From Acidobacteriota bacterium (GTDB lineage: Bacteria > Acidobacteriota > Terriglobia > Terriglobales > Acidobacteriaceae), in assembly GCA_003010405.1 (NCBI GenBank), contig PJLO01000010.1, forward strand, positions 62,001 to 126,000: DNA of 64,000 nt. Reading direction: 5' to 3'. The position numbers and the translations under genes were made by a program. Shown one piece after another: positions 22,486 to 34,350 of this stretch (position 1 is the first letter of the stretch; every line of letters begins with the position of its first letter). The notes under the pieces were generated by a model. That model was not told where the DNA came from. It did no database searches and saw only the letters and a list, made by a program, of their open reading frames with translations.

Positions 22486-22526
22486 CGCAGCGATGAGTGG
22501 CAAATGCAGGGAAAACAGGCGGGTGG

Positions 22527-22555
22527 CCCACTCAAGCTTCAGTTGCTTGAGTGGG
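22527..22555. repeat. REP-like palindrome between hemH and hemY
   Basis: CCCACTCAAGC (22527-22537) pairs perfectly with GCTTGAGTGGG (22545-22555), with GGGTGG immediately upstream. The same CCCACTCAAGC core recurs beside the decayed RAYT transposase at 28569-28602, which suggests a dispersed REP family. Confidence 0.6.
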
Positions 22556-22595
22556 GTTGTTGAAAGACCATGGTTTGGGGATCGGGAGTTGCTTC

Positions 22596-28003: not shown

Positions 28004-28541
28004 TTATCGTGGACCATTGATGGCAGGATTCGCATTGGAAAGAGTTGGAAGTCGTTCACGCTTCCGAGCCGTCCACTGTGACTCGATTTCTGCTCGCTCT
28101 TCGCAGCCGGTTGCGCAGTAGCGAAAACTGTTCCATTCCCAATCCTCCGCACGCTTACACAATCCGCGCGTCGCCGGATTGCGATGAGTATAGCGACGTT
28201 CTCAACGAACTGCTCATAATCGCGGATATTGAGATCGTAGTACCGCTTCGCTAAAAGTCCTCCGCGCCAGCAATCGGGCGTCTTGACGCTCCCTGCTTCA
28301 GTGATTTCAGCGCGTCTGAAAGCGTGTCCTTATCAGGCTCGCTGAGCAACAAGTGCGCGTGTTCCGGCATGACCACATATCCGTTTACACGCAATTCGAA
28401 ATTGCGCCGCACGCGCTCCAGGGCAAACTCAAATGTCTGCCGAGCGGCGGAGGTGGTAAAAGATAGGCGGCGAGGACAGGTGGTGAACGTCACAAAATGA
28501 CTTTGTCTGGATTCGTGGAAGCGCTTCAGTCCCCAGGGCAC
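28004..28541 (-). pseudogene. REP-associated tyrosine transposase (RAYT), frameshifted
   Basis: The first 96 residues are intact and typical of RAYT proteins: MPWGLKRFHESRQSHFVTFT, then the HUH-like block GYVVMPEHAHLLLSEPDKDT. The frame then stops after AGAEDF near 28254. The downstream sequence continues the family in other frames: AKRYYDLNIRDYEQFVENV in one frame and, after a second shift near 28205, YTHRNPATRGL and KRAEDWEWNSFRYCATGCEE to a stop at 28004. Two frameshifts therefore break a gene that would otherwise be near full length. RAYTs are domesticated IS200-like transposases that mobilise REP palindromes; REP-like hairpins lie directly upstream. Confidence 0.82.
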
Positions 28542-28560: not shown

Positions 28561-28640
28561 GAAACGCCCCACTCAAGCCAAAAGAGGGCTTGAATGGGCC
28601 ACCACGAGTAGTCCCTGAGATTGGGCATGGGTGGCGTTTC
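28561..28640. repeat. REP-like palindromic cluster (BIME-like) beside the RAYT pseudogene
   Basis: CCCACTCAAGCC (28569-28580) pairs with GGCTTGAATGGG (28587-28598, one G-T pair) and is followed by CCACC. The outer arms GAAACGCC (28561-28568) and GGCGTTTC (28633-28640) are exact reverse complements and enclose the whole unit, with TGGGCATGGGTGG inside the right arm. This nested layout, next to a RAYT gene, matches a bacterial interspersed mosaic element. Confidence 0.65.
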
Positions 28641-30152: not shown

Positions 30153-31400
30153 GTGTTAGTTTCCGACTTTGACTTCCTATTACCCCCGGAGCTGATCGCG
30201 CAGCATCCGCCAGCGGAACGCGCGACCTCACGAATGTTGCATCTGAATGGCAGCGTCATAATAGACAGGTTTTTCAGTGAGTTTCCCCAACTTCTACGTC
30301 CATCCGACCTGGTGGTCTTTAACGACACGCGGGTTCTTCCGGCACGCCTGTTCGGGCATCGCAGCGGGAGCCGGGCGCAGAAGCTCAGCCCGGCAAATCC
30401 GGCCTCCAGAGACTTTCTGAAGGGACGGGTTGAGGTGCTGCTGACTCGGCGGCTACCGGGCTCTGAGCAGCTATGGGAGGCGCTGGTTCGTCCGGGAAGA
30501 AAGATCATGCCGGGGGAACGGCTGTACTTTGGTCCGGAAGGCGCTGATGCTCCGTCTTTGGAGGCCGAGGTGCTCACGCGGGGAGAGTTCGGTGAGCGAA
30601 CTCTGCGGTTCATGCCGGTCCCCGATTTTTTCGCGCGGCTGGAGTCGCTTGGGCATATTCCCCTGCCGCCCTACATAGATCGCGAGGACACGGACGAAGA
30701 TCGCAGACGCTACCAGACGGTTTTTGCGCGCGATCCGGGTTCGGTGGCCGCTCCTACGGCAGGCCTGCACTTTACCGAAGAGATTCTGGCGCAGATGAAG
30801 GAAAAGGGCGTGGAAACGGCTTCAGTCACGCTGCATGTGGGACTCGGAACCTTTGCGCCGATCCGGACCGACGTGGTGGAAGAACACAAGATTCACACCG
30901 AGTGGTACCAGATTTCAGAGAAAACTGCGGAACAGATTACGCGAGCCAAGCGCGAAGACCGGCGGGTAGTGGCCATCGGCACCACTACGGTGCGAACGCT
31001 GGAGTACGCCGCAGAGCGGTGTTTCGAGCAGGGGCAAAGGCAAGAGCAACAGCCCCGCGTTAGCCAGAAGATGGCTAACATGGGGCACCCGCTTGGGTAC
31101 ACGATTGGGGAAGATCCCCACATTCGCCAACAGAAGGCGAATGTGGGCCACCAGACTAGCTTGGGGCACCCACAGGACTTCATGACCGAGCAGAGCGGCG
31201 AGGCCGACATTTTCATCTACCCGGGATATCGATTCCGGGTGGTGGATGCGATGCTGACGAACTTCCATCTGCCCAAGAGCACGCTGCTGATGCTCGTGTC
31301 GGCCTTTGCCGGACGCGAGAACGTACTGTCGGCATACAACCATGCCGTACGCGAGCGGTACCGGTTTTTCAGCTATGGAGACTGTATGTTCATCGAGTAA
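30153..31400 (+). CDS. queA: S-adenosylmethionine:tRNA ribosyltransferase-isomerase, with in-frame REP-like insertion
   Basis: This is 415 residues from a GTG at 30153, about 50-70 longer than typical QueA. The enzyme moves the ribose of S-adenosylmethionine to preQ1 in tRNA to make epoxyqueuosine. Motifs include [68 protein letters not shown] and the C-terminal [20 protein letters not shown]. Between [12 protein letters not shown] and [14 protein letters not shown] lies an extra segment (about residues 295-345) encoded by REP-like palindromes at 31059-31090 and 31117-31152. The reading frame stays open and both flanks are conserved. Apart from the start, no other anomaly is seen. The next gene, polA, begins 59 bases later. 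Confidence 0.95.
31059..31170. repeat. REP-like palindromes inside queA
   Basis: Unit A: GTTAGCCA (31059-31066) pairs with TGGCTAAC (31072-31079), then ATGGGGCACCC. Unit B: CCCACATTCGCC (31117-31128) pairs perfectly with GGCGAATGTGGG (31136-31147), then CCACC. A third tail, TTGGGGCACCC, ends at 31170. Unit A recurs with 31 of 33 bases identical downstream of polA at 34318-34350. Confidence 0.75.
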
Positions 31401-34276: not shown

Positions 34277-34317
34277 GCCAGCAGGGCACCTGCAAAAACA
34301 AAATCAACTACACCCAC

Positions 34318-34350
34318 GTTAGCCCAAAGATGGCTAACATGGGGCACCCG
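34318..34350. repeat. REP-like palindrome downstream of polA
   Basis: GTTAGCC (34318-34324) pairs with GGCTAAC (34332-34338), followed by ATGGGGCACCCG and then a T-rich stretch. It is nearly identical to unit A inside queA and lies in the same orientation, 42 bases after the polA stop. It may also help end the polA transcript. Confidence 0.7.

Follow-up and report, generated by a model that had tools for sequence, protein, structure and literature searches.

The extra segment in the QueA protein of this Acidobacteriota bacterium very probably consists of short REP elements that were moved by the RAYT (TnpA_REP) HUH transposases of the same genome, and it would represent a near-neutral decoration of the enzyme.

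REP Units Inside queA

The queA gene lies in the window, by which we mean the whole stretch of 64,000 nucleotides that was analysed. It forms a single open frame of 415 codons with zero stops, and the Pfam domain PF02547 (Queuosine_synth) spans residues 3-414 (E 5e-128), that is, the whole protein. The frame runs intact beyond the insert to the normal C-terminus. The features of the gene, and one intergenic copy that is compared with it, are listed below.

30153-31400, plus strand: queA, S-adenosylmethionine:tRNA ribosyltransferase-isomerase, 415 aa, intact frame (ORF; PF02547; PDB relatives 1YY3, 1VKY and 1WDI)
31015-31196, plus strand: expanded QueA loop after ...RTLEYAA, ~49 residues more than in sister species G003, predicted disordered (loop comparison, structure prediction)
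31053-31089, plus strand: REP unit A, stem CGTTAGCC/GGCTAACA, in the QueA reading frame and apparently translated (blastn, inverted-repeat search, covariance model)
31116-31152, plus strand: REP unit B, stem ACATTCGCC/GGCGAATGT, likewise in the QueA reading frame (blastn, inverted-repeat search, covariance model)
31156-31171, plus strand: truncated third REP, tail CTAGCTTGGGGCACCC (tail comparison, motif frequency)
34312-34348, plus strand: intergenic REP A after polA, which matches QueA unit A at 31 of 33 bases (sequence comparison, covariance model)

The inverted repeat of unit A (31052-31066/31072-31086) is 15 nt long and 87% complementary, and that of unit B (31117-31128/31136-31147) is perfect at 12 of 12 positions; read on the minus strand, unit B starts with a canonical GTGG foot. 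The first-pass annotation had described two perfect palindromes, which is correct for unit B and not for unit A, and its coordinates (31059-31170) clipped the left edge of unit A by about 6 bases. It had further reported about 50 extra residues at the palindromes, a third partial tail, a recurrence of unit A after polA, and an in-frame insertion between two conserved QueA blocks. These were all recovered, the segment being two REP hairpins and a truncated third whose tail is 88% identical to that of unit A.

In the AlphaFold2 model, QueA has a mean pLDDT of 88.7, which falls to about 44-50 at residues 311-340, a segment predicted to be disordered and situated between a helix (277-299) and a strand (347-351). 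The insert corresponds to a position between residues 268 and 276 of Bacillus subtilis QueA (1YY3) and 272-278 of Thermotoga maritima QueA (1VKY), and QueA structures rank on top in Foldseek. The site is thus, according to the model, an indel-tolerant, predicted disordered loop, and the earlier view of a gain within an essential-type fold needs correction, since the predicted fold itself is not broken into.

In the 64 codons of queA 3' of the insert, this genome (G000) and G003 differ at 5, 1 and 24 sites on codon positions 1, 2 and 3, so the C-terminal block has been under protein-level selection, although this bias records mostly the history before the insertion. Together, the open frame and the codon-position bias after the insert suggest that the insert residues are present in the protein.

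A REP Family Across the Genome

With the 112 bases of the repeat segment as the query, blastn matched 16 further genomic places, the two best at E 6e-11 and 1e-9, and the motif TGGGGCACCC occurs 40 times versus 3 times for a reversed control; therefore, the QueA repeats exceed chance. A foot and tail, CCCAC...GTGGGSCACC, are common to the whole family, and the tail GGGSCACC is found on nearly all copies across six stem families, namely A (GTTAGCC), B (ATTCGCC), C (CTCAAGCC), D (ATCTGC), E (CTTAGCGCC or CTTAGCCGC) and F (GGTTAGCGCC). The stems differ by compensated changes: among 24 copies, 94.8% of the stem cells are paired, and 50 cells carry changes on both sides versus 13.6 in shuffles. On the tag strand, the foot of families B and C, which include QueA unit B, is mostly GGTGGCCCA (GTGG, of the GT[AG]G pattern), and that of families A, D, E and F, which include unit A, reads GGTGCCCCA (GTGC) and departs from this pattern. 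The elements are 37-45 nt long and present in many copies, within the 20-65 nt of short palindromic repeats.

A census was built from searches and from the stretches around the matches. At E ≤ 0.01, a covariance model (R2) found at least 83 copies in G000, 86 in G001, 93 in G002 and 16 in G003, each of these counts being a lower bound from up to 150 scored candidates per genome. The model was trained on copies that include both QueA units, whose own scores are thus not independent of it, and the independent evidence for these units is the blastn search. An earlier model (R1) gave 99 matches in G000 at E ≤ 0.1, and when codon score was used to place the matches on this list, about 10 of the 99 fell inside 7 recognisable genes; the REPs are therefore mostly intergenic. 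Open reading frames around REPs with a weak codon score (e.g., C52:145061, C32:213006 and C13:108723) were discounted, since they are unlikely to be genes.

RAYT Transposases and Their REPs

Three further features of the window belong to this system.

22522-22556, minus strand: weaker REP of the CTCAAGC family (covariance model)
28278-28502, minus strand: RAYT remnant L045, C-terminal part missing (PF01797; NF047646 at 53.5 bits, below the cut-off of 80; translation)
28567-28603, plus strand: CTCAAGCC-family REP adjoining the RAYT remnant (covariance model, sequence inspection)

The truncated RAYT and its REP lie ~2 kb upstream of queA. Seven Y1 transposase matches were found in the genome, and five of the proteins were scanned with NF047646, the NCBIfam model of REP-associated tyrosine transposases; all five match, four of them above the cut-off, and the fifth is the truncated remnant in the window. 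Six of the seven RAYT genes or remnants adjoin REPs of this family, and each RAYT type has its own stem type. L043 lies between B-type REPs (ATTCGCC/AATCGCC), L041 and, on one side only, the remnant L045 lie beside family C, L042 lies beside family D, and L039 and L044 lie beside family E (CTTAGC). The pairing of RAYT and REP is thus clear for families B, C, D and E, and matching stems that flank each RAYT are a hallmark of REP/RAYT systems (Nunvar 2010, PMC2817692; Quentin 2018, PMC6006769). None of these REPs was found around the seventh gene, L040.

None of the RAYTs found in this genome has family A REPs beside it; unit A would therefore need movement in trans or an enzyme that has since been lost. 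Two family A REPs on contig C96 (L233, G000:C96:97500-105000) stand between genes that by appearance are prophage-like (terminase, portal, capsid), and no RAYT was found between these two copies. L041 (G000:C52:175501-175827), the RAYT that adjoins the numerous CTCAAGCC REPs, is interrupted by an in-frame TAG immediately ahead of its HUH motif, so this family may today depend on an enzyme that acts in trans or may have stopped moving. Elsewhere on C52 (L234, G000:C52:62299-64448), a molybdopterin/alternative complex III-like gene has its frame ended by a REP-RAYT-REP unit; the remainder of this ActB-like gene was sought nearby and was not found.

The QueA Loop in Related Species

The four congeneric species form the tree ((G000,G003),(G001,G002)) with support of 88 and 97. 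Measured from TTTVRTLE to NFHLP, their loops have 93 residues in G000, 85 in G002, 65 in G001 and 44 in G003. The sister species G003 has a normal loop without the insert, and nearly all other Acidobacteriota compared likewise lack it. Among 103 QueA records with a recognisable loop, which include a few duplicates, the loop measures 41-50 residues in 94 and 41-60 in 97, and the records with more than 60 residues have expansions of their own. The relatives are ~80% identical, a distance at which insertion boundaries and target duplications are unreadable.

A single C-type REP (GAPFKPSVGLSGD) occupies the loop of G001, and two GTCTGCC-type hairpins (GAPCLPQLADVGD and DAPCLAPFVGERRGN) occupy that of G002, all in the orientation opposite to G000. 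Because stems and orientation differ, G000 and the G001/G002 branch probably acquired their REPs independently. The flank GGGGWQ is common to G001 and G002, and these two may therefore go back to one old insertion whose stem was later replaced.

REPs are also read through in two further QueA loops of other genera (L137, 2882-2926; L208, 454-488), and the same loop in another genus (L081) has a REP-like hairpin with a weak model score (E 0.11), a clear 10-bp palindrome and the foot GTGCCCCAC. In genera g62 and g52, the first QueA loop holds unrelated palindromic repeats, and in genus g29 simple expansions. The repeats in g62 (L189, L192, L193 and L195) are CCTGAGCTTGCCGAAGGG and AAGCAAAACCAGCTT, and the loop of G290 (L190) has two palindromes around GGCGAGGGCGCC within its frame. 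Since REPs, unrelated palindromes and simple expansions all occupy it, the loop has a general tolerance of insertions.

In-Frame REPs in Other Core Genes

At least six other core genes of G000 carry in-frame REPs, namely mnmG (two), pheT, gltX, mutS2, lipB (two) and an HhH-GPD glycosylase gene; five were identified by Pfam and mutS2 was named from its sequence. The mnmG site also holds a REP in G003 (GGPHPPALGECGD) and a degraded one in G002 (GAPCLPPVNEGD); at the pheT site, one is present in G002 (GGPFKPSVGLSGE) and absent in G001 and G003. These two sites could be old insertions that were inherited with losses. Further decorated genes, named from sequence only, are a prmC-like gene in G002 and LarC-like and glycosyltransferase-like genes in G003. 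At least four decorated genes are common to different species, versus ~0.016 expected by chance if about 3000 genes are assumed, and common ancestry may explain part of this overlap.

In a tally made by hand, the Gly/Pro-rich frame GGPxxPxxGxxG accounts for 12 of 19 elements and, with each gene site counted once, for 7 of 14. By gene site, this bias has a P of about 0.01-0.04, given 4 to 5 open frames, and is moderate evidence for a filter that would act at the protein level.

The first-pass annotation had regarded an in-frame gain of this kind as unusual, which the decorated core genes contradict within this group, and had taken REPs to be normally intergenic, which agrees with the census. 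The two comparisons that it proposed gave clear answers: in an alignment of relatives, the segment was absent or different REPs stood in its place, and a genome search for units A and B returned the many copies described above. The relatives do not all carry the segment with conserved residues and without palindromes, as an old loop would require. Its central proposal, that mobile REP-like palindromes create protein sequence, is supported, and translation of the insert is probable.

Proposed Origin and Alternative Explanations

In the origin that we propose, RAYT (TnpA_REP) HUH transposases would mobilise the short REP hairpins by single-strand cleavage and transfer, an activity for which an in vitro assay exists (PMC8266576). 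REPs would be inserted into queA and other genes, and most insertions would be lost; those retained would be in frame, stop-free and in surface loops that tolerate added residues. The loop concerned in QueA is flanked by a helix that ends near residue 299 and a strand that begins at 347. The insert would be transcribed and translated within QueA and is probably close to neutral.

A bolder version holds that REP/RAYT systems are a recurring source of coding sequence, that the QueA, MnmG and PheT loops are hotspots with a preferred frame, and that some decorations were kept because they alter the enzyme; we consider this doubtful. Still less probable is that the QueA decorations are adaptive or targeted, either because the RAYT/REP system prefers this loop or because the extra peptide alters activity and is selected. 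The recurrence of different REPs in the same loop in several lineages, the recurrence of the same genes and the frame bias would all suit it, but the unrelated palindromes and simple amino-acid expansions in that loop elsewhere fit tolerance, no peptide sequence is common across the two orientations, and the insert is missing from G003 and from most of the order.

An old QueA loop could have turned palindromic later, or the hairpins could serve the mRNA (pausing, stability) under RNA-level selection. The length of the loop varies across the order, with expansions that are not REPs (L016, L017 and L200), and the QueA hairpins as RNA are stable, at about -23 kcal/mol. However, both units match copies elsewhere in the genome, intergenic ones included, no Rfam family matched near queA, the loop of the sister species is normal, and stems and orientation vary among species, so that no RNA structure is conserved; this explanation is largely refuted already and retains very little probability. 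An assembly artefact or a pseudogene, with QueA broken in this organism, is hardly credible, since the assembly does consist of 98 contigs but three separate assemblies show a similar in-frame insert, the frame is intact to the C-terminus and queA is kept in 378 of 397 genomes of the order.

Insertion of REPs by the RAYTs of the same genome is thus our preferred reading, and the comparative evidence for QueA is unusually good, clear and repeated. Among the four congeneric species, the same loop is free of REPs in one, holds a single REP in another, two hairpins in reverse orientation in a third, and two forward REPs with a tail in the fourth, which amounts to a natural experiment; the presumed mobilising transposases reside in the same genome as the decorated QueA. 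The case shows how mobile hairpins add protein sequence and at which places proteins tolerate such additions, and such inserts are to be expected by gene finders and in structure predictions for Acidobacteriota.

Comparison With Known Systems

In-frame palindrome insertion is already known; a limited set of papers yielded none that links QueA with palindromic inserts. REPs of the GTAG and CGTC superfamilies occur within ORFs and are translated in frame in core genes, many of which encode DNA or tRNA enzymes (tRNA synthetases, TruB, UvrA), and in two Xanthomonas species recB has been hit by REPs at nearly the same position; the insertions lie in loops or linkers and were suggested to be neutral (Di Nocera et al., 2013, PMC3733652). 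For Acidobacteriota, the relevant portions of that paper mention only 'TIRYT' transposases with terminal inverted repeats and do not name the phylum for intragenic REPs. Our case resembles theirs in the in-frame REPs in core genes that include tRNA enzymes, and differs in that, from species to species, one QueA loop has taken up several REP families in either orientation.

Rickettsia palindromic elements (RPE; Ogata 2000), as summarised in PMC10969869, are about 150 bp long and occur in frame within otherwise unrelated protein genes, where the protein structure can accommodate them. The likeness is in-frame palindromes at structure-compatible sites (the predicted-disordered QueA loop, mnmG, pheT and others), whereas the elements described here are ~37 bp long, stand beside RAYTs and belong to Acidobacteriota, and thus are not RPE in size or family.

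With REP/RAYT systems (REPtrons, REPINs; PMC2817692; Bertels and Rainey, 2011, PMC3116915; PMC6006769), they have in common the palindrome, in families B and C mostly with a GTGG-type foot, a high copy number and matching RAYT flanks. They differ in the GTGC foot of families A, D, E and F instead of GT[AG]G, and in that they enter coding loops in addition to intergenic DNA. New here are the acidobacterial elements as a set and the finding that different REP families have settled repeatedly in the same loops.
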